Assembly: GCF_900167125.1 (NCBI RefSeq) | Contig: NZ_FUYC01000004.1 | Coordinates: forward strand, 124,001-188,000 | Direction: 5' to 3' | DNA length: 64,000 bases | Source: Paucidesulfovibrio gracilis DSM 16080 | GTDB taxonomy: Bacteria; Desulfobacterota; Desulfovibrionia; Desulfovibrionales; Desulfovibrionaceae | Shown: positions 7,618 through 45,505 of the stretch, one piece after another | How positions within the stretch are numbered: the stretch's first letter is position 1 | Layout: every line of letters starts with the position of its first letter | Translations under genes and position numbers: made by a program | Notes under the pieces: model-generated | What the model was told of the DNA's origin: nothing | The model's database searches: none | What the model saw: the letters and a program-made list of their open reading frames with translations, nothing else

Positions 7618-7911
7618 ATGTATCCCAAAGATGTGACGAAGGTCGTGCAGGATTCGGTACTGGGTGGCGAAATGCAGGCCAAGGAAGTGGCGGAACGGTT
7701 GGGCAAGCCCTATTCCACATTGCTGCGTGAATTGAACCCGTTTGATCTGCGTGCAAAGCTTGGGGTGGAAACATTGTTGGAGATCATGCGCGTCACGCAT
7801 GACACCAAGCCTCTGGCATTCATGGCCAAGCAAATGGGCTATCGTTTGGTGCCGGAAAATTCATCGTCGGAACGTCCGGTGAAGATTTTTCGTCCCGGGG
7901 TGAACGTCTGA
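7618..7911 (+). CDS. Small DNA-binding protein, phage regulatory CII-like (Phage_CP76) family
   Basis: This 97-residue protein has the layout of the phage CII/CP76 regulatory family: an early helix-turn-helix (EVAERLGKPYSTLLRELNP, about residues 23-41) followed by LGVETLLEIMRVTHDTKPLAFMAKQMGYRLV. A strong GAGGGGGAAAG precedes ATG 7618; an in-frame TTG at 7573 lies inside the promoter region and is unlikely. It has its own promoter and terminator, and no other phage gene is nearby, so it looks like a domesticated chromosomal regulator. The target is unknown. Confidence 0.75.
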   Translation: MYPKDVTKVVQDSVLGGEMQAKEVAERLGKPYSTLLRELNPFDLRAKLGVETLLEIMRVTHDTKPLAFMAKQMGYRLVPENSSSERPVKIFRPGVNV

Positions 7912-7972
7912 GGAGCAACAAAACTTCTGCCTGTCGTGCGGTCCCTGACAGGCTGGAACACGAATTTGCGAG

Positions 7973-8011
7973 GCCCGGTTTCGTATCTTTTCGGAGCCGG
8001 GCTTTTCTTTT
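7973..8011 (+). terminator. Rho-independent terminator after the CII-like gene
   Basis: GCCCGGTTTCG (7973-7983) pairs with CGGAGCCGGGC (7992-8002), including wobble pairs. TTTTCTTTT follows. Confidence 0.85.
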
Positions 8012-8086
8012 GGTTGTCAGAATCAAAGGGATTTGCGACGGAACAAAGACGAACTTTGAATACGGGAATTCCACTAGGAGCCGATG

Positions 8087-10351
8087 ATGGCGGGTCAACT
8101 TTGCGTACATGGACATTTCTATCAGCCTCCTCGGGAGGATCCGTGGTTAGGATGCATTCTTCCGGAGGGTACGGCCGCTCCGGCCATGGACTGGAACAGT
8201 CGAATATTGCGTGAATCGTATGCTCCCTTGGCTTTTGCCCGGCGACTTGATGCCCAAGGGCGGATTACCGATATCGTGAATTGTTATGAGTGGATCAGTT
8301 TTAATTTCGGTCCGACGCTGCTTTCCTGGCTGGAACGAGGCGCTCCCCGAGTCTATGCCCGACTCCTGGAAGCGGACAGGCGCTCCCAGGAGCGTTGGGG
8401 ACATGGCAACGCCATGGCACAGGTTTATCATCACGCCATTTTGCCCTTGGCCTCAGCACGGGATCGTATGTTGGAAATCGCCTGGGCGCTGGATGATTTT
8501 GAGTCGAGATTCGGTCGCCGCGCCGAAGGGATGTGGCTTTCCGAGGCCGCCGTGGATACGCCTACCCTGGAGTCCATGTCCGCTCAGGGGGTACGTTTCA
8601 CCATCCTTTCACCGCACCAGGTGCAGGCCATTGCCGGGGAGGATGGCACGTGGCAACCTGTGAGCGGGGATGAGGTGGATCTCTCCAGGCCGTATTCTGT
8701 TGACTTGCCTTCGGAACGCCCGATGGCAGTGTTTTTTTATAATGGGCCGCTTTCCCAGGCCGTAGCCTTTGAGGGGCTGCTCAAGGATGGGGAGCGGTTT
8801 TGGAATCGTCTGACCGGAGTTGGCTCCGAGGGGTTGCTTAGTATCGGCACGGATGGAGAGACATACGGTCACCATTTTCCTTTCGGCGAAATGGCGTTGG
8901 CGTATGTTTTGGAACAAGCCCGTGCCGGACGGCAGGGATGGAGTCTTACCAACTATGCCGCGTATCTTGCGGATAATCCTCCTAAGCAACGGGTACGGCT
9001 GAAGGAGCCGTCCTCCTGGAGTTGTTCCCATGGGGTGGAGCGATGGCGGGCCGATTGTGGGTGCCGTGATGGTGGGCATCCGCAGTGGAATCAGAAATGG
9101 AGAGCGCCGCTTCGTCAGGGGCTGGAAGCCGTTAAACAGAAAGTGGATGAACATTTTGATGCTTTGGGCAAGGAATTGTTTCTTGTTCCTGAAGAGGCTC
9201 TGCGTGCGTATGGGACGTTTTTGTCGGGAAAAAGTGATTCCAAAGTGTTTCAGAACAGCTACATGAAGTCTGGACTTTCTCGTGAAAATATCCAAAAATC
9301 ATGGAAGCTTCTGGAAATGCAGCGTTTTGGGCTTGCCATGTTTGCAAGTTGCGCTTGGTTTTTTGATGATGTTTCCCGAGTGGAACCACGGAACGCGCTC
9401 ACCTACTGCATGCGCGCCATGGAGTGTTGCCGGGCGTCGGGGGGGCCGGATCTTGAATCGGTTTTATGTGATGAATTGAAGAAAATATATCCGAATGAGC
9501 CTCGGTATCCTGATGGCATGGCGCTATACGAGGAAGAAGTCGTTGCCCGTCGGCAAACAACAGCGCGGCTGACGTGCCTCGCCTTGGTACGCCTTCGGTC
9601 CAATGCGGAGATGCCTCCTCCCGGGGGGGAGGCCGAAGTGCGTTGGCCGGGAGTGCACATCACGGTTGCTCGATCCCTGGCTGGGACGCTGGAATCCGGC
9701 ACTGTGGAAGGAACCGCACTCTTACGTATGTGCCATGGTGGGCTGGTGGCCGGAGGCGCCGTGCGTTGCGGTTGGCGCTGGGAGCAGGGAAGAAAGGATG
9801 ACGGTCTTTGCGGGCAAATGTATTTTCAGTTGGATAACGGAACAGAAGAAACCATCCGTCCGGAATCATTACATTGGAAAATGCGGCAAAGTGCGTTGCA
9901 GGAAGCCGTTGAGCTGGCGGCGTCGGAAGATTGGGAAGCCTTGTGGCGACACGCAGAACAGGCGAAGTTTTTCCTGGAATATCGACCACATCAATCCGTT
10001 CCACAGCATCAAGCTTTTTGGGCTGCGCAGTGGCCTGCCTTAGCCTTGGCCGTCATTCGCCAGCCGTGTTTTGAAGATCGGAAGGATTTGTGGAACTTTA
10101 TTCGTTCCATTGGAGAGGGGCATCCGGCGAAGCCCTGGTTGGAGCAGCGGTTGGGGCGCTCCCTACGGGATATGCTGTGCGAGGGAACCGTCCAAAGTGC
10201 AGAACTGGCTGAAATAATTCGTCGCAGCCGCGCCGCAGGATTGGAGGTGGATCTTTGGGGGCTGCAAAATCGGTTTTGGCATGACGCCGAGCTATGGTCC
10301 GATGCGGCGCTCGGCAAAGCACTGGGAATCGCCCCTGGTGCCCGGGGATAA
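8087..10351 (+). CDS. Glycoside hydrolase family 57 / DUF3536 protein
   Basis: This is a cytoplasmic protein of about 754 residues. The N-terminal half is a GH57-type barrel: it opens with CVHGHFYQPPREDPW near residue 5, contains EGMWLSEAAVD (likely region of the catalytic Glu) around 146-156 and SIGTDGETYGHHFPFGEMAL around 247-266. The rest matches the DUF3536 arrangement, with SSWSCSHGVERWRADCGC. GH57 members include alpha-amylases and alpha-glucan branching enzymes, so an alpha-glucan substrate is likely but the activity is not known. AGGAG six bases upstream favours ATG 8087 over the adjacent ATG 8084. It converges with the MBL gene; no terminator is obvious. Confidence 0.85.
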   Translation: MAGQLCVHGHFYQPPREDPWLGCILPEGTAAPAMDWNSRILRESYAPLAFARRLDAQGRITDIVNCYEWISFNFGPTLLSWLERGAPRVYARLLEADRRSQERWGHGNAMAQVYHHAILPLASARDRMLEIAWALDDFESRFGRRAEGMWLSEAAVDTPTLESMSAQGVRFTILSPHQVQAIAGEDGTWQPVSGDEVDLSRPYSVDLPSERPMAVFFYNGPLSQAVAFEGLLKDGERFWNRLTGVGSEGLLSIGTDGETYGHHFPFGEMALAYVLEQARAGRQGWSLTNYAAYLADNPPKQRVRLKEPSSWSCSHGVERWRADCGCRDGGHPQWNQKWRAPLRQGLEAVKQKVDEHFDALGKELFLVPEEALRAYGTFLSGKSDSKVFQNSYMKSGLSRENIQKSWKLLEMQRFGLAMFASCAWFFDDVSRVEPRNALTYCMRAMECCRASGGPDLESVLCDELKKIYPNEPRYPDGMALYEEEVVARRQTTARLTCLALVRLRSNAEMPPPGGEAEVRWPGVHITVARSLAGTLESGTVEGTALLRMCHGGLVAGGAVRCGWRWEQGRKDDGLCGQMYFQLDNGTEETIRPESLHWKMRQSALQEAVELAASEDWEALWRHAEQAKFFLEYRPHQSVPQHQAFWAAQWPALALAVIRQPCFEDRKDLWNFIRSIGEGHPAKPWLEQRLGRSLRDMLCEGTVQSAELAEIIRRSRAAGLEVDLWGLQNRFWHDAELWSDAALGKALGIAPGARG

Positions 10352-34004: not shown

Positions 34005-34706
34005 TCAGAGTTGTTGTTGTCCGGAGGCCAGATTTTCCAACTGGCTTTTGTCCAGGATCGAGATATGCCGTCCGCGCATGGCAATGACCTCCTGTTCCGC
34101 CATGCGGCGCAGTGTTCGGGAGAGTGTTTCCTGGATTGTCCCGAGATAAGAGGCGATTTGGCCTTTGGGCAGCTCCAGGCGGAGTTCGTCGGACTCCTGG
34201 GTCGAAGCCAGCAGCAACAGATAGGCGGCCAGCCGTTGCGGGACTTCCTTGAGGCTGAGGGTTGCCACTTGTCCGACAAGCAGGCGGAGTCGTCCGGCCA
34301 GAAGCGCGATCATATTCATACCGAGGTCCGGTTCGTCCCGAATGAGTGACCGGAAGGCCTTGCGCTGAAAAAAAAGCAATTTCGATCGCTGCAACGCCCG
34401 AGCACTTGCAGGAAATGTGGTGCCTTGGAAGACCGGCACTTCGCCGAACATATCCCCCTGGCTCCAGATATGAATGATTTGCTCCTTACCGTTCATGGCG
34501 GCTCGGTAGATTTTGATGGATCCGCTTTTCACCACATAAAAGCCGCGGGCTTCTTCCCCGGCTTGAAAGATTTCTTCTCCCTTTTCAACGAGACGGGGAA
34601 CCGCAATGCGTGTCAATTCCCGTACCTGCTCCTCCGGCAGACCGTGAAATAGAGACACGTTGGAAAGCGAAAAGGGTTGGCCTGCTGTGGTCTCTTGATA
34701 CTCCAT
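34005..34706 (-). CDS. Crp/Fnr-family transcriptional regulator (HcpR/DNR-like)
   Basis: This 233-residue regulator has an N-terminal cyclic-nucleotide-type beta-roll (about residues 20-135; KGEEIFQAGEEARGFYVVKS, GDMFGEVPVF), a dimer helix, and a C-terminal winged helix (about 165-225). The recognition helix reads TIQETLSRTLRRM, carrying the Glu-x-x-Ser-Arg typical of FNR-class readers of TTGA half-sites. It lacks the N-terminal cysteine cluster of FNR, so it does not sense oxygen by an FNR-type [4Fe-4S] cluster. HcpR-type proteins of Desulfovibrio sense NO by heme; I infer a similar role from the neighbours. A palindrome 12 bases before its ATG suggests autoregulation. No clear ribosome site is seen. 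Confidence 0.85.
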   Translation of the reverse strand: MEYQETTAGQPFSLSNVSLFHGLPEEQVRELTRIAVPRLVEKGEEIFQAGEEARGFYVVKSGSIKIYRAAMNGKEQIIHIWSQGDMFGEVPVFQGTTFPASARALQRSKLLFFQRKAFRSLIRDEPDLGMNMIALLAGRLRLLVGQVATLSLKEVPQRLAAYLLLLASTQESDELRLELPKGQIASYLGTIQETLSRTLRRMAEQEVIAMRGRHISILDKSQLENLASGQQQL

Positions 34707-34717
34707 AATGCTTTTTT

Positions 34718-34731
34718 TTGACCCAAGTCAG
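34718..34731. promoter_or_regulatory. FNR-like operator, near-perfect (TTGAC-N4-GTCAG)
   Basis: TTGACCCAAGTCAG lies between the regulator gene (ATG 12 bases away, leftward) and the ferredoxin-type gene starting at 34796. Nine of ten half-site bases match the perfect boxes at 35452 and 39845. Confidence 0.65.
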
Positions 34732-34795
34732 TGCTGCTGTCAAAGTATTTTGCCAATAGTGGGGGGGACAAGGAATTAGACTGCGAGGTAAAGGC

Positions 34796-35455
34796 GTGAG
34801 GAAGCAAGGTGATGGTTGGGATGTGACGTTGTGTCGAGGCTGCACCACACATGATTGCCGTTTCGGATTGCCTATGGAGACAGGGTTCGTGGATCGGTTT
34901 GTTGATGTCGTGCAAAAAACCGGGTGGTCGGAATTTGTTTTGGAACAAGTTGGGAGTGGTGTTTCCGTCCATAAGCGGATTCGCTTTGCGATCGCCGGGT
35001 GTGCCAATGGATGTTCCCGGCCGCAGATTGTGGATTTTGGGTTGTTACGGGCAGTGTTGCCTAACGTTGAACCGGATGCGTGTACCGGCTGCGGATTCTG
35101 TACCGGGGCGTGTCCGGAAGGCAGCGTGTCGATGGAGCCGGCTCATGGAACAGGTGTGTGTGTTCCGCTGATTGATCGGGATCAATGCCTTTTGTGTGGG
35201 CGTTGTTCGGCCGCTTGTCCTGAGGGGGCCATGCGTATGACGGCAACAGGATGGCGTGTGGTTGTGGGGGGACGTCTGGGCCGTTTACCGGTTTTGGCAA
35301 GGGAGTTGCCGGGGCTATACGATGATGACGCGGTGTTGCAGTTGGTCGACGCTTTGGTCCGTTTGTTCATGCAGCATTGGAAGCCGGGATTGCGTTTGGG
35401 GGTGCTTTTGGAGGAATTAGGATTTGAAAATGTTGTTTCCGCCTGCTCCCTTTGA
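34796..35455 (+). CDS. Sulfite/nitrite-reductase-like cysteine motif protein with two-cluster ferredoxin domain
   Basis: This is a 219-residue protein starting at GTG 34796. The N-terminal part has CRGCTTHDC (residues 13-21) and, about 45 residues on, IAGCANGCSRPQIVDFG, which resembles the C-x3-C half of the siroheme/[4Fe-4S] motif of sulfite and nitrite reductases. The first half does not have the canonical C-x5-C spacing. Two [4Fe-4S] ferredoxin motifs follow (CTGCGFCTGACPEG near 96-109; CLLCGRCSAACPEG near 131-144), then an uncharacterised tail. It may be an electron carrier or a stripped-down siroheme protein. It is transcribed away from the Crp/Fnr gene, with an FNR-like box between them. 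Confidence 0.7.
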   Translation: MRKQGDGWDVTLCRGCTTHDCRFGLPMETGFVDRFVDVVQKTGWSEFVLEQVGSGVSVHKRIRFAIAGCANGCSRPQIVDFGLLRAVLPNVEPDACTGCGFCTGACPEGSVSMEPAHGTGVCVPLIDRDQCLLCGRCSAACPEGAMRMTATGWRVVVGGRLGRLPVLARELPGLYDDDAVLQLVDALVRLFMQHWKPGLRLGVLLEELGFENVVSACSL

Positions 35456-35465
35456 CTTTGGTCAA
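35452..35465. promoter_or_regulatory. FNR-like operator, perfect (TTGAC-N4-GTCAA)
   Basis: TTGACTTTGGTCAA overlaps the stop codon of the preceding gene and lies 65 bases before the ferredoxin gene start at 35530. Both half-sites are perfect. Confidence 0.75.
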
Positions 35466-35529
35466 ATACTTTCCTGCTCTGTTGACGCAAGGTGATCTCA
35501 CGTTGAACAAGATGTCAAGGAGTCAAAGT

Positions 35530-36279
35530 ATGGGTATGCAGCGTGAGATAATTCGGATTGACGAGGAAAAGTGCGATGGTTGTGGGCTTTGTGTCCCCAG
35601 TTGCGCCGAGGGAGCCATTCGCATTGTGGATGGAAAAGCTCGCATTGTGGCCGATAAGTATTGTGATGGCCTTGGCGCCTGTTTGGGCCATTGCCCTCAG
35701 GGGGCTTTGAGCATTGAAGTCCGAGAGGCCGAAGCGTTTGATGAGCAGGCCGTCGAAGCGCTGCTTGCAACGGGGCAGCCGGTGCATGCCGCAGAATCCG
35801 CACAGCAATTCAGCGGATGCCCTTCCGCAAATGTTAAGACCCTGTCTCCATGCGAAGGATTCAACAGTCCCCGGATCCGAACGGATAACGAGAAGGGTGC
35901 TTCCGCCCTGTCGCACTGGCCCGTACAGATACGTTTGGTCCCGCCGGATGCTCCCTTTCTCCAGGATGCGGATTTGTTGCTTACGGCTGATTGTGTTGCC
36001 GTGGCATTGCCCGATTTCCATTCCCGTTGGCTCCCTGGACGCGTGGTCCTCATGGGCTGTCCCAAATTTGACGATTCGGAATCGTACGTCGAGCGGCTGT
36101 CGGCACTGTTTCAGACCACTTCCATTCGATCCTTGACCGTGTTGGAAATGGAGGTTCCATGTTGCGCAAATATGAGTCGTATCGTGGCCAAGGCGGTTGC
36201 TCGGGCAGGGGTACCGTTGCGCTTTGAGAGGGTTGTTATTTCCTGTCGCGGACAGGTTGTGGGCCGCGAAACCAGTTGA
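35530..36279 (+). CDS. Ferredoxin with unrecognised cysteine-containing C-terminal domain
   Basis: This 249-residue protein has an N-terminal 2[4Fe-4S] ferredoxin domain: CDGCGLCVPSCAEGAI (residues about 17-32) and CDGLGACLGHCPQGAL (about 49-64). The remaining 170 residues form a separate domain with an MGCPKFDD segment, VPCCANM and a late SCRGQ; the cysteines suggest another metal or redox site. Similar ferredoxins sit beside hybrid-cluster-protein genes in sulfate reducers (family knowledge), but no hcp gene is in this window. AAGGAG seven bases before ATG 35530 fixes the start. The operator at 35452 suggests control by the Crp/Fnr protein. Confidence 0.75.
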   Translation: MGMQREIIRIDEEKCDGCGLCVPSCAEGAIRIVDGKARIVADKYCDGLGACLGHCPQGALSIEVREAEAFDEQAVEALLATGQPVHAAESAQQFSGCPSANVKTLSPCEGFNSPRIRTDNEKGASALSHWPVQIRLVPPDAPFLQDADLLLTADCVAVALPDFHSRWLPGRVVLMGCPKFDDSESYVERLSALFQTTSIRSLTVLEMEVPCCANMSRIVAKAVARAGVPLRFERVVISCRGQVVGRETS

Positions 36280-36471
36280 CGAATAAAATGTGGACGTTAA
36301 CTGAGTGGGCCTATGCTGCATTTTCCGGTTGGTTGACAATACGAAAAATACAACACCGGTGAATGGTAACCTAGATGTTCCAAGATTATTTCGGATTGCA
36401 TCGCCTGTTCAGCAGTGCTGGAGTGGCGGCGGTGAACCGGGTTGGGGCTTTAAAAAAAAGGTAGGAGAACC

Positions 36472-36789
36472 ATGCGGACGATATCTTTGACGGAAGAGAA
36501 TGGATTCAAGGCGGAAACGTTCAGCACGCTGCATGCACATGCATCGCCGTATACCAAGGTGGTTAATTTTAACTTTGAGCCTGGACAGGAATTGCCCTTG
36601 CATTCACATGATATTGAAGGGGAGTTGGTGCTGACCGTGCTTGAAGGCGAAGGAGAATTTCTGGGTGCGGAAGGGATGCGCGTTCCAGCCCGAACCGGAG
36701 ACGTGCTTATCGCTGACATCGCAGAACCGCATGGCGTCCGGGCAATTTCCCGGATGCGGGTGCTTGTGGTCATTGCACCCCCCATCTGA
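36472..36789 (+). CDS. Small cupin-fold protein
   Basis: This 105-residue single-domain cupin has metal-binding histidines in PLHSHDIEGELVLTVLEGEG (residues about 42-61) and a late EPHGVRA. Such proteins may bind a metal and a small ligand or act as sensors; no substrate can be named. AGGAGAACC precedes the ATG. It lies 190 bases after the ferredoxin gene and about 140 before the sulfite reductase, so it probably has its own promoter. No FNR-like box was found directly upstream. Confidence 0.8.
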   Translation: MRTISLTEENGFKAETFSTLHAHASPYTKVVNFNFEPGQELPLHSHDIEGELVLTVLEGEGEFLGAEGMRVPARTGDVLIADIAEPHGVRAISRMRVLVVIAPPI

Positions 36790-36927
36790 TCCCGGCTACA
36801 GGAGATGGATCGGGCGTCCTGTCCTGTTTGGGTTTCCACCTTGTTTCCTTGTGGCGGAAGATGTAACGCTTCCCCGGTCAGCTGGCTGAGTGGCTTATAC
36901 CAACAAGGATGAGAAGGGAGGAATGGA

Positions 36928-37581
36928 ATGAAGGATGCCTTGAAAGGCGCGATATTGCAGCGGGACAAGACGACGTACGCCATTGTTCCCCGGACGCCGG
37001 CCGGGATCATGACTCCGGATCAGTTGGAGTCCATTGCCCATGTGGCTCGGAGGTACGAAGTACCTGTCTTGAAGATCACTTCGGGTCAACGCATGGCGCT
37101 TGTGGGATTGGCGGAACAGGATGTTTCCCGGGCTTGGGACGACTTGCGTATGGAGGTGGGGGAGGCAACTGGGCTTTGCGTGCATTATGTTCAGGCCTGT
37201 CCAGGAACAGCGGTTTGTCGGCTGGGGCTTCGGGATTCTCTTGGGTTGGGGCTGGAGCTGGAACAACTTTATGTTGGGCGCGAACTGCCAGCCAAGGTGA
37301 AGATGGGCGTATCCGGCTGTCCCATGTGCTGTGGTGAGTCCTGGGTAAGAGATATTGGTTTTTTAGGAAAGAAAAACGGTTGGACCATGATTGTGGGCGG
37401 CTCCAGCGCCGGGCGGCCCCGCATTGGGGATCTGCTGGCCGAGGGGCTGGACAGGGAGCAGGCTGTGGAACTGGCGGGACGCTTCTTGGATTATTATGCG
37501 GAGCAGGCTCCCAAACGGCACCGCACGGCAAAGTTTTTGGAAAAGCATGGCATTGAGGCCGTGAAAGAAGCCCTGTTGTAA
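36928..37581 (+). CDS. Assimilatory-type (low-spin) sulfite reductase, siroheme/[4Fe-4S] protein
   Basis: This 217-residue single-subunit enzyme closely matches in length and motifs the small assimilatory-type sulfite reductase known from Desulfovibrio vulgaris, which reduces sulfite to sulfide with siroheme coupled to a [4Fe-4S] cluster. The cluster ligands are visible as CPGTAVC (C-x5-C, residues about 91-97) and CPMCC (C-x3-C, about 131-135). The substrate-side basic residues would be in ITSGQRMALVG. GGAGG precedes the ATG. A terminator follows at 37611. Proteins of this type may also reduce nitrite, which fits the haoCA neighbours (inference). Confidence 0.9.
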   Translation: MKDALKGAILQRDKTTYAIVPRTPAGIMTPDQLESIAHVARRYEVPVLKITSGQRMALVGLAEQDVSRAWDDLRMEVGEATGLCVHYVQACPGTAVCRLGLRDSLGLGLELEQLYVGRELPAKVKMGVSGCPMCCGESWVRDIGFLGKKNGWTMIVGGSSAGRPRIGDLLAEGLDREQAVELAGRFLDYYAEQAPKRHRTAKFLEKHGIEAVKEALL

Positions 37582-37610
37582 GTTCTGGAGTTGCCTCGAC
37601 GTTCCATTGC

Positions 37611-37644
37611 AAAGGCTCCGCACCATATGATGCGGAGCCTTTTT
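37611..37644 (+). terminator. Rho-independent terminator after the sulfite reductase gene
   Basis: AAAGGCTCCGCA pairs with TGCGGAGCCTTT over a short loop, followed by more T's. It sits between converging genes; leftward the T tract is short. Confidence 0.88.
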
Positions 37645-37649
37645 ATGGC

Positions 37650-39041
37650 TTATTGCTTACCGAACAGCTGCGGCGGTCGTGTGGTGTCTCCGCCGGATCC
37701 CGGATACGGGTCGGCCTTATGGGCAGGCTTCCCGGATTTGATCAGTTGCGCGGCTAATTCCATGAACGTGTTGTAGCGGTGCTTGCATTCATAGAATCCA
37801 TGCCACCAGGCATAGTCGGGTGCCATCATGGCCGTACCCATGCGTGCGCGGCGGCCTTCGTGGTGCCAGAGTTCATAGTACTGGACTTCCAGTTCCTCAT
37901 CAAAGAACCGTGACTTATCCAGCAGGTTAGCTTCATAGAGCTTATCCAACATGGCCTTTGCGGGCTTGAAGTATATCTCGTTATAGTTTGCAACGGCTTG
38001 ATCCATGCGTGCGTAGTGACTTTCCGTCCAGGTTTTGGAATGGCACTGGTTGCAGATGTCTTGCATCTTGCCGCGCTCTACCTTCCAGTCGGTCTTTGCC
38101 GGAAACGCCGGGAAGTCTTGTGGCCGAATCGTTAAAGGAGCCTGGAGTTCCCAGGAAAGCCGCTCCGTAACGTCGTGAGTCGTCATCACGGACCCCGATC
38201 CGGACATATGGCACGAAGCGCAGGTGGGACCGCGGTAGTCTACGCCCGGGGTCCAGGTGCCAGGGGCGGAATCCCAATTGTACTCGTCTCCGAAAGCTGT
38301 GTACAGGTCTCCATGTTTGGATTCCATGTAGATTTCAATCTGGGGATGATCCGGACCCAAGTGGCATTGTCCGCAGGCCTCGGGTTTGCGGGCTTCCATG
38401 ACAGAGAAGCGATGGCGGGTATGGCAGCTGGTACATGATCCGAGGCTGCCGTCCAGGTTGACGCGTCCAACGCCGACATTGGGCCAGGTCAGGGGATCAA
38501 GTTTTCCATCTTCATTCTGGCGAAGGATGGTGCCATGGCAAGTATAACAGCCCGTGGAGCGCTCCACGGCGTTGTTCATGCCGTGGTTGAGCCATGGGTC
38601 GATTTTCCAGATGATTTCCATTGTGTTGGCGTGCTTGGAACGGCTGTATTGCATGGCTTCATCGGGATGGCACCGTGAACAGTCTTTGGGTGTGACGACC
38701 CCGGCCACAGCGATTTTATATTCTCCGGTTCCCCACTTGGTGTCGGAGCGTTCGTACTGCTTGAAGTGTTCCTGGCTGATGTCCTTGTCGCCTGTTTGGG
38801 CCTGGTGACAGTCCAGGCAGGTCACATTGGCCGAGGCGTGGCGGCTCATGGCCCAGTCCGTAAACAGTCCGGGACTTTCGGTTTTATGGCATTCGATGCA
38901 GGCTACGGCCTGTGGAGGCATGCCCCGTTCGATGCGAAATTCCTTCGGCTTTGGAAGATTTTGTTGAGCAGCCGAGGCAAATGATGACACGGCAAATGCC
39001 GCCACTGTCAACATGACGGCGATGAAACATTTCTTGTTCAT
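37650..39041 (-). CDS. haoA: Octaheme cytochrome c, hydroxylamine-oxidoreductase (HAO) family
   Basis: This 463-residue periplasmic protein has a signal peptide (residues 1-25, ending FASAA) and eight CxxCH heme sites, in order CIECH, CLDCH, CSRCH, CYTCH, CTSCH, CGQCH, CASCH and CNQCH. Eight hemes, no CxxCK site and the length rule out the pentaheme nitrite reductase NrfA and fit the HAO family. The C-terminal MMAPDYAWWHGFYE motif lies where HAO enzymes carry their P460-region residues. In non-nitrifiers such proteins, paired with HaoC, are thought to act reductively on nitrite or hydroxylamine. Whether the crosslinking tyrosine is conserved needs an alignment. GGAGGG precedes the ATG. Confidence 0.85.
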   Translation of the reverse strand: MNKKCFIAVMLTVAAFAVSSFASAAQQNLPKPKEFRIERGMPPQAVACIECHKTESPGLFTDWAMSRHASANVTCLDCHQAQTGDKDISQEHFKQYERSDTKWGTGEYKIAVAGVVTPKDCSRCHPDEAMQYSRSKHANTMEIIWKIDPWLNHGMNNAVERSTGCYTCHGTILRQNEDGKLDPLTWPNVGVGRVNLDGSLGSCTSCHTRHRFSVMEARKPEACGQCHLGPDHPQIEIYMESKHGDLYTAFGDEYNWDSAPGTWTPGVDYRGPTCASCHMSGSGSVMTTHDVTERLSWELQAPLTIRPQDFPAFPAKTDWKVERGKMQDICNQCHSKTWTESHYARMDQAVANYNEIYFKPAKAMLDKLYEANLLDKSRFFDEELEVQYYELWHHEGRRARMGTAMMAPDYAWWHGFYECKHRYNTFMELAAQLIKSGKPAHKADPYPGSGGDTTRPPQLFGKQ

Positions 39042-39123
39042 TGAAGTCCCTCCTTCCTCCGATTTTTGCTGGTTCGGTCGCTAAACGGAAAATATTCGCC
39101 ATGTGCCGGAGCACGGAAACGCA

Positions 39124-39720
39124 CTACGGAATTTCATCCGGGTCAAACCGCACCAGCTTGTGCAGCCCTGTGGCACGGTAGGGGGGAAGATCTTGTTTGT
39201 AGCCATAGTAGGGACGGTCCACGTGAACGAGGTTCCGATGACAGTCCGTACAGTTTTTTTCGTATCCAGGAAGCGGGTGCAGAGCGCTTTTATGGGCAAG
39301 CATGGCTCCGCGCTGATCCGGCATGGACAAGAGATTGCGATGACACTTCAGGCATTGGGCATTTTTGATGCTTTGGTAGGCTTTTTCCCGTTGTTCTTTG
39401 CGGACGTAGTCGTTGCCTCCGGTGGCTATGTGAACGGCCACGTCCTTGATGCCGTGCCAGGTTTTGGTGAAAAAGAAATTCATCGTGTCATGCGGAGCCG
39501 GCAGGTGGCAGTCCATGCAATCGGCCACCAACCCCTGTGGATTGTTCACATGCGTTGATACCTGCCAGGCCTGAACCGCAGGTTCGATTTCGTGGCAGCT
39601 CGCACAGAACTCAGGAGTGGAGGTGCGCACCATCGTGTAATAGGTCATGCTGAACACGGGAAAGGCGATCAGGATACCGACGGTTGTCCAAAGGATCGGC
39701 GCTATGGCGCGTTTTTTCAT
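39124..39720 (-). CDS. haoC: Tetraheme NapC/NirT/NrfH-family membrane cytochrome, partner of HaoA
   Basis: This 198-residue protein has one N-terminal membrane anchor (residues 7-27) and four CxxCH sites: CASCH, CMDCH, CLKCH and CTDCH. It is the quinol-dehydrogenase type that passes electrons from menaquinol to a periplasmic multiheme reductase. It is first in the leftward pair with the octaheme gene 82 bases downstream, the haoC-haoA order known from non-nitrifying bacteria. GGAGA precedes the ATG. A perfect 20-bp palindrome lies about 120 bases upstream. Confidence 0.87.
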   Translation of the reverse strand: MKKRAIAPILWTTVGILIAFPVFSMTYYTMVRTSTPEFCASCHEIEPAVQAWQVSTHVNNPQGLVADCMDCHLPAPHDTMNFFFTKTWHGIKDVAVHIATGGNDYVRKEQREKAYQSIKNAQCLKCHRNLLSMPDQRGAMLAHKSALHPLPGYEKNCTDCHRNLVHVDRPYYGYKQDLPPYRATGLHKLVRFDPDEIP

Positions 39721-39841
39721 GCGTTCTCCAGAGGTTGATGTCCTTACGGAAAAAACGGAGCGGCCATGATCCGCATGAAGGAAGGGCCGTTTCCAGCCGT
39801 TTATGGATGGTTCTATTCGGTATCATTGATTTGATGTTTGT

Positions 39842-39861
39842 TTTTTGACTTAAGTCAAAAA
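39842..39861. promoter_or_regulatory. FNR-like operator, perfect 20-bp palindrome
   Basis: TTTTTGACTTAAGTCAAAAA is a complete inverted repeat with core TTGAC-N4-GTCAA (39845-39858). It lies between the divergent haoC (start 39720) and trkA (start 39961). It most likely controls haoCA; an effect on trkA is possible. Confidence 0.8.
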
Positions 39862-44491: not shown

Positions 44492-45505
44492 TCAGGAACA
44501 AGCCTGGAGCATGCGTTCCAGGGCGGTACGCGCGGGGAACTTGACGTGTTCGGCCACGTCCTCGGCCGGTTCCTGGGCAATGTTCTCCAGCAGGTCGGCA
44601 ACTTTTTCGGGCGTGATTTTGCGCATGTCCTCGCACCAGCCCATGTCCAGGTGCAGGATGGTCTTGCGCCCTTCATACCGTTTTGCCAGCCGATTGACCA
44701 GACTGGCTTCTGTACCCACAATGAGCGTAGAGCCTTCGGGCGCTTCTTCGCACCAGCGGATCAAAAACGAGGTGGAGCCATCCGCATCGGCTGCCTGAAC
44801 GACCGAGGCCGGACTTTCCGGGTGCACTGCGATGCGGCATCCTGGATATTCGCGGCGTAATTGCTCCACACGGCCCATGTCGTAGACGTCATGCACGGGG
44901 CAATGACCGGGCCAGAGCAGGAGACGCGCATTTTTTGCTGTTTCCGGTGTGATGGTGTCCGGGTCAATGATCAATCTTTCGGATTCAGGGAGTCCCAGCT
45001 TGTCAGCCGTGTTCCATCCCAGGTGCCGATCAGGGAGAAACAGAACCGCGTCGCCACGGTCCATGGCCCAACGGAGCATGGTGGAGGCGTTGGCCGAGGT
45101 GCAGACAGAACCGCCCGCCTCGCCGACGACAGCTTTTACTTCCGCTGAAGAGTTGACGTAGGTCAAGGGTACGACGCGCCGGGTCGACCCGATTGCCTGC
45201 AAAACGTTGCGCACGTCATCGGGGTCGGCCATGTCCGCCATGGGGCAAGAGGCCTCGGGCTCGGGGGTAAAGATTTGTTGATCCGGACGGCGAAGGATGG
45301 CGGCTGATTCGGCCATGAAGTAGACGCCGCAAAAAACGATCAGTTCCGCTTCCAGATGCTCGATATGGCGGGCCAGTTCCAGAGAGTCGCCGGTAATGTC
45401 GGCAACCTCTACAACGGGATCGGTCTGATAGTGGTGGGCCAGGATCGCAAGTCGGTCTCCCAGCTGTTCTTTTTTGTTTAGGATTCTGTTCAAAGAATGG
45501 GTCAT
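44492..45505 (-). CDS. nadA: Quinolinate synthase
   Basis: This 337-residue [4Fe-4S] enzyme condenses iminoaspartate with dihydroxyacetone phosphate. Visible motifs are LAHHYQTDPVVEVADITGDS, FCGVYFMAESA with the first cluster cysteine, CTSANASTM, and LLWPGHCPVHD. I chose ATG 45505, which starts shortly after the nadC stop; a TTG at 45535 would overlap nadC. Confidence 0.97.
   Translation of the reverse strand: MTHSLNRILNKKEQLGDRLAILAHHYQTDPVVEVADITGDSLELARHIEHLEAELIVFCGVYFMAESAAILRRPDQQIFTPEPEASCPMADMADPDDVRNVLQAIGSTRRVVPLTYVNSSAEVKAVVGEAGGSVCTSANASTMLRWAMDRGDAVLFLPDRHLGWNTADKLGLPESERLIIDPDTITPETAKNARLLLWPGHCPVHDVYDMGRVEQLRREYPGCRIAVHPESPASVVQAADADGSTSFLIRWCEEAPEGSTLIVGTEASLVNRLAKRYEGRKTILHLDMGWCEDMRKITPEKVADLLENIAQEPAEDVAEHVKFPARTALERMLQACS

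Follow-up and report, generated by a model that had tools for sequence, protein, structure and literature searches.

What does a Crp/Fnr-family regulator control, and to which signal does it respond, when its gene lies among genes for a ferredoxin, sulfite-reductase-like proteins and a pair of multiheme cytochromes? This question is raised by a locus of Paucidesulfovibrio gracilis DSM 16080, found in a 64,000-nucleotide stretch of contig NZ_FUYC01000004.1 (positions 124,001 to 188,000; the whole stretch is called the window hereafter, and coordinates count from its first letter). The regulator, a protein of 233 amino acids (aa), is encoded on the minus strand at 34005..34706, followed by the ferredoxin gene 35530 (genes are named by their first coordinate) and the cytochrome genes haoA and haoC. 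A first-pass annotation had proposed here a small regulon centered on the regulator, and the conserved operators described below bear this out. The locus probably works like an HcpR regulon, with class II activation of frdX (35530) and haoCA, and with nitric oxide (NO) or another reactive nitrogen species as the likely signal; we give this reading, which draws on sequence comparison, a probability of about 0.78. The operator and this kind of regulon are already known, since the HcpR motif was published in 2004–2005; in deltaproteobacteria other than Desulfovibrio it is wyTTGACnnnnGTCAArw, and Ser or Pro replaces Arg180 of CRP in the regulator (PMC1274295). The HcpR identity went unseen in the first-pass annotation: regulator, box, ferredoxin and sulfite/nitrite-reductase-like gene all match the regulon predicted in those years.

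Three boxes of the form TTGAC-N4-GTCAA stand upstream of the ferredoxin gene, haoCA and the regulator, as had been annotated. The perfect box TTGACTTTGGTCAA (35452..35465) overlaps the end of the preceding gene, 34796, and is centered about 71 bp 5′ of the start of 35530, where the sequence fits the motif wyTTGACnnnnGTCAArw expected before frdX (a name given here from linkage). The perfect box TTGACTTAAGTCAA (39845..39858) has its center about 131 bp 5′ of haoC. The third, TTGACCCAAGTCAG (34718..34731), carries one mismatch and occupies the divergent promoter between the regulator gene and 34796, and could serve 34796 as well as the regulator. Such boxes are rare by chance. The window has three perfect ones against 0.05 expected from 100 dinucleotide shuffles (shuffle maximum, 1), and eight with at most one mismatch against 2.13 expected. 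The rarity claimed earlier is thereby upheld, but the earlier count of two perfect boxes missed one at 45153-45166, within the nadA coding sequence. As an operator this box was rejected: it is intragenic, has no such perfect counterpart in the congener G001, and is probably a chance occurrence, because the sole perfect box of G001 genome-wide is the haoC one.

In the whole 3.18-Mb assembly five perfect boxes were found, against none for the reversed control pattern. Three are in promoters, those of 35530, of haoC and of another Crp/Fnr gene, located on contig C5; the other two are within genes, namely the nadA box and one at C4:9037, which was also rejected as an operator since it lies inside an open reading frame (ORF) read, without a family search, as KdsD-like. 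Perfect boxes against reversed control numbered 1 and 0 in G001, 4 and 0 in the other congener, G002, 5 and 1 in G004, and 8 and 3 in G028. Raw genome-wide counts are weak evidence, and it is the position of the boxes that carries weight. For sites with at most one mismatch outside the window, 39 stretches of the genome were scanned, among the matches listed, with sites in ORFs of at least 180 aa hidden; 15 rows were left, and no further targets are claimed from them.

Conservation in related genomes, which the first-pass annotation had named beforehand as one of its checks, was found. The genes of both congeners follow the order glyS, rpsT, regulator, 34796, 35530, cupin, haoA, haoC, trkA (the glyS and rpsT labels are from our own reading), and all three boxes are kept in both; the 14 bases at 34718 recur unchanged in the two, and the 35530 box has one mismatch in G001. 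Enrichment in the promoters of relatives was measured against 59 permuted half-sites applied to the same promoter sets. Among 28 regulator promoters, 7 have a perfect box and 14 a box with at most one mismatch, where the control maxima are 0 and 1; among 29 frdX promoters (30 loci minus L081, which meets a contig end), the numbers are 5 and 18, again with control maxima of 0 and 1. For haoCA, 106 loci gave 95 with at least 700 nucleotides (nt) upstream, 13 of them with a perfect box, and 89 distinct regions after six duplicate contigs were dropped; the script found no haoC start for L195. Perfect boxes occur in 11 of these 89, and the control maximum is 1. The 11 comprise three of this genus and include records of Desulfobacterales, Desulfobacteraceae, Salidesulfovibrio and Syntrophobacteria. 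A near-match also recurs in this set at a site read as inside haoC.

The position of the boxes relative to the promoters points to activation. When 38 offsets were compared, the best −10 match fell 22 nt after the box in the haoCA and frdX sets alike, and at this spacing A occupies position 2 of the −10 element in 11/11 haoCA and 15/17 frdX promoters (we chose 18 frdX loci, of which 17 carry a box; two others that carry one, L076 and L081, were left out). At 35530 the putative −10 element is CAAGGT (35488..35493, plus strand), and at haoCA it is TACCGA, preceded by TGA (39817..39822, minus strand). A −10 element 22 nt after the box places the box center at −41.5, and therefore in class II activator geometry, since −41.5 is the position of class II activators at Crp/Fnr promoters. 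For 34796 a weaker candidate, CAATAG with TG just upstream (34754..34759, plus strand), is found at this 22-nt distance, both here and in the two congeners. In the scheme that we propose, a regulator dimer would bind the TTGAC-N4-GTCAA boxes and, at 35530 and haoCA, would touch RNA polymerase from −41.5 as a class II activator; 34796, its box probably likewise at −41.5, would be activated in the same way. The regulator's own box is centered only about 18 bp 5′ of its ATG, which suggests autoregulation, more likely by repression.

The regulator itself has the features of the HcpR type. It combines a cNMP-binding domain with HTH_Crp_2, and its recognition helix, GTIQETLSR, contains the E-x-x-S-R signature that had been annotated. 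Position 180 in this helix is Gln and not Arg, in agreement with published TTGAC-type regulators, and is Pro in several orthologues. Arg precedes ETLSR in two orthologues, one with a TGTGA-like site (L013) and one with none (L014), which may faintly reflect the covariation that has been published for position 180 and the motif. In 14 of 28 genomes, its own included, no more than 6 kb separate the regulator gene from hcp, frdX or both by coordinate comparison, as expected for HcpR. In a tree of 34 rows, four of them long-branched, the window protein falls in a 15-row clade (support 98/98) of which 12 rows are hcp/frdX-linked; the Crp/Fnr paralogues of its own genome fall outside.

The best match of the regulator in the PDB is DNR (3dkw, E 2.6e-33), and as its closest solved relative DNR suggests another reading, in which the protein would regulate anaerobic or nitrite respiration in the manner of DNR or FNR, with haoCA as its main respiratory target and the ferredoxin incidental. 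The rare co-occurrence of haoA and nrfA and the lack of an Hcp match in the genome, both described below, would fit such a respiratory role. However, FNR and DNR boxes are published as TTGAT-N4-ATCAA, and the DNR operator TTGATnnnnATCAA is not what is seen here, since the window boxes have TTGAC half-sites. The proximity of regulator orthologues to hcp or frdX in half of the genomes also speaks against it, as does the absence of any cysteine for an FNR cluster, and we regard it as unlikely. Indeed, as the first-pass annotation had noticed, the FNR cysteine cluster is lacking: none of the 233 residues is cysteine, and therefore the protein holds no 4Fe-4S cluster by its own cysteines. Its orthologues have between 0 and 3 cysteines, none shared with the window regulator because that protein has none. 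What is conserved is His79, the sole histidine of the window regulator kept in at least 90% of orthologues (28/28). It is absent from three Crp/Fnr paralogues of the same genome and from a CooA-like protein of G002. His79 comes just after the flap, in a region which we take to be near the effector pocket of CRP, and may thus offer a lead to the sensor site, not a proof of one. That NO, nitrite or hydroxylamine is sensed we infer from gene content and family.

Could the boxes serve another protein? A Crp/Fnr paralogue of the same genome, on C5 or C15, might be their user. The C5 paralogue is 40% identical to the window regulator, has the helix ATPETLSR and carries the perfect box TTGACATGCGTCAA, with its start 34 bp upstream of the ATG, and the C15 paralogue (L037:5450-6205), near a catalase gene, has TTGATGGGCGTCAA about 124 bp upstream. 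Such use would be compatible with an HcpR-type regulon through cross-binding. Yet all three boxes are kept in G001, where the Crp/Fnr protein second in similarity to the window regulator is only 31% identical to it, and therefore a C5-type paralogue is not needed. Moreover, the boxes are syntenic with the orthologue of the window regulator, and half of its 28 orthologues have a box of at most one mismatch in their own promoters. We consider it improbable that the boxes belong to a paralogue. As a separate observation, the C5 paralogue (box C5:34840-34853, gene C5:34892-35521; L035:7841-7854 and 7875-8540, respectively) is divergent from an SBF-family transporter gene, with a peroxiredoxin-type gene nearby.

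The predicted targets are redox proteins. Gene 35530 (35530..36279, plus strand) encodes a two-cluster ferredoxin of 249 aa. It is named FrdX-type because its best matches adjoin genes of family PF03063, which contains Hcp: by coordinate comparison the two are no more than 1 kb apart in 20 or more of 79 genomes. The name thus comes from linkage. Gene 34796 (34796..35455, plus strand) encodes a 219-aa iron-sulfur (Fe-S) protein with a NIR_SIR half-domain and two 4Fe-4S motifs; weak relatives (32–33% identity) stand after TTGAC boxes in G004 and G028. It resembles, as compared by description only, the HcpR target of D. vulgaris called 'putative sulfite/nitrite reductase'. Next to 35530 is a gene for a 105-aa cupin (36472..36789, plus strand), and 13 of 80 named haoA loci have a homologue of it nearby; in several of the 13 it adjoins hcp or frdX as well. 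For D. gigas, too, a figure legend on the hcp/hcpR region names a cupin, and the small cupin is possibly an unrecognised partner.

A second sulfite-reductase-like gene, 36928 (36928..37581, plus strand), encodes a small siroheme reductase-like protein with NIR_SIR_ferr and NIR_SIR domains, similar to the C-terminal part of NirB. With NIR_SIR domains in both 34796 and 36928, and with aps and sat among the predicted HcpR targets of Desulfovibrio (PMC545781), the locus might be thought to respond to sulfite or another sulfur oxide. But 36928 is closest to NirB and, though present in G001, has no match in the contig of G002, where the other cluster genes are kept; the haoCA and hcp neighbors point instead to nitrogen oxides. 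Nothing was found in support of the sulfur oxides that the first-pass annotation had included as signal or substrate, and we hold such a response to be very improbable. In the proposed scheme these remaining products would serve as Fe-S and siroheme redox proteins.

The haoCA pair encodes two multiheme cytochromes. HaoA (37650..39041, minus strand) is an octaheme cytochrome c of the multi-haem Hao-like family with eight CxxCH motifs, and HaoC (39124..39720, minus strand) is a tetraheme NapC/NrfH-type cytochrome of the NapC/NirT family with four. A reductive Hao (epsilon-Hao type) is marked by eight CxxCH hemes and a partner of NapC/NrfH type, and the pair has both. Such a Hao also lacks a tyrosine cross-link to the active-site heme; the alignments of HaoA with 1fgj and 4fas, chains of hydroxylamine oxidoreductase, end before the C-terminal region. 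HaoC would act as a quinol-linked donor, and HaoA probably as a periplasmic reductase of nitrite, NO or hydroxylamine. Of the 80 named haoA loci, 15 have hcp nearby (in one case a short piece), 8 have frdX and 7 have the regulator, at identity thresholds of 45% for Hcp, 38% for FrdX and 33% for the regulator, with flanks of at most 10 kb, many of them cut by contig ends. Control genes were found less often (trkA at above 70% identity near 3, glyS near 2 and rpsT near 2), in Desulfovibrio or Salidesulfovibrio records.

Across 79 genomes haoA and nrfA are seldom together. At 65% identity or more, haoA is present in 26 genomes, in one of which it is spread over two reading frames; 41 genomes have a full-length nrfA, and only three have both (Fisher p 3e-7, on genome lists transcribed by hand). 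Weak above-cut-off nrfA matches in G030 and G077 were excluded; with G077 the overlap is 4/79. Counted by genus, the overlap is 2/57 (p 1.4e-5), kinship above genus being uncorrected. Such rare co-occurrence would fit a Hao that takes the place of NrfA, and it agrees with a proposal made for Nautilia. No NrfA-family match was found in the genome of P. gracilis itself. Matches to PF03063 occur in 68 of the 79 genomes, a tally that overstates Hcp because the family also catches CooS-type genes; the strongest (about 620 bits) include a G002 gene read as CooS beside CooA.

Several results weigh against an HcpR regulon. First, no match to PF03063, which covers both Hcp and CooS, was found in the genome of P. 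gracilis, whose assembly is 99.85% complete; for this reason we call the regulator HcpR-type and not HcpR in the strict sense. Both congeners do have such matches, and no box of at most one mismatch was found in the fetched stretches of three of their Hcp-type genes (two of G001, one of G002), all of which lie outside the regulator-haoCA cluster; two further PF03063 matches of G001 fall outside this check. Second, with one mismatch allowed, 22 haoCA regions have a box, barely above the top control of 17, so that the perfect class alone is decisive, and 78 of the 89 have no perfect box. In terms of sequence the link between haoCA and the box is real but patchy. Third, the other 14 of the 28 regulator orthologues have no box of at most one mismatch in their own promoters. 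Fourth, genome-wide counts are not clean: P. gracilis has 72 sites of at most one mismatch (the five perfect ones included) against 46 for the reversed control, a modest excess, and in G009 the control outnumbers the motif by 5 to 2 perfect boxes. Finally, the hcp/frdX-linked regulators as a whole are set apart from the rest by a single branch in no more than 52% of bootstrap trees, two Crp/Fnr paralogues of the genome have reading helices similar to that of the window regulator, and the heme ligand of Porphyromonas gingivalis HcpR, Met68, is not conserved, Arg68 taking its place here with the flap aligned by hand (PMC12750200).

The missing Hcp gives room for a bolder idea, which we put forward tentatively and rate as doubtful. 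In this lineage the HcpR regulon may have outlived hcp, with regulator, ferredoxin gene and operators persisting; HaoCA would then be the main output, a periplasmic sink for NO and nitrite that replaces Hcp and NrfA, and NO might be sensed by a heme or another cofactor at His79, with no cysteine involved. The HcpR-type regulon as such would tie haoCA of sulfate reducers and their relatives, whose role is unsettled, to a regulon of the NO-stress type, and would suggest a job for Hao where NrfA is missing. It would also provide a naturally occurring HcpR-type regulator in the absence of Hcp, with which the question of what these proteins sense could be addressed.

The closest known system is the deltaproteobacterial HcpR regulon, to which the locus is similar in its palindrome, its ferredoxin target and its sulfite/nitrite-reductase-like target, as well as in the non-Arg residue at position 180 and the hcp/frdX linkage of regulator orthologues (PMC545781; PMC1274295). 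The HcpR targets of Rodionov (2004; PMC545781) comprise hcp, frdX, a cytochrome c gene that is given no name and, under the motif of Desulfovibrio, a sulfite/nitrite reductase-polyferredoxin operon. The present locus differs in that an Hcp match is lacking and in that octaheme haoCA is not a named target in the available portions of those accounts. In the same work a Desulfuromonas gene for 'Cytochrome c (heme-binding protein)', 390999, numbered next to frdX1, has an HcpR box; this could be the same link between HcpR and hao, unnamed. HcpR1 and HcpR2 of D. desulfuricans 27774, a relative, are likewise Crp/Fnr regulators of the NO response, but HcpR1 binds TGTGA-N6-TCACA, unlike the TTGAC boxes of the window, and an Fe-S cluster is part of the model for HcpR2, whereas the window regulator has no cysteine (PMC5701242). 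HcpR of P. gingivalis is a further NO-linked member of the Crp/Fnr family, different at its heme ligand as described above (PMC12750200). In the literature searched, which covered few subscription papers, no link of HcpR to octaheme Hao was found. Relative to that literature the new elements are haoCA as an HcpR-type target, the frequent presence of hcp near haoA, the rare co-occurrence of haoA and nrfA, and an HcpR-type regulator in a genome with no match to Hcp or NrfA. The remaining parallel is the nitrite ammonification of Nautilia profundicola by a reverse hydroxylamine:ubiquinone reductase module (reverse-HURM; PMC3701875). That organism belongs to Campylobacterota, the available part of the account does not mention HcpR, and the second step of its scheme finds no Hcp match in the P. 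gracilis genome. Under this reverse-HURM scheme, control of hao and hcp by one common regulator would make sense.

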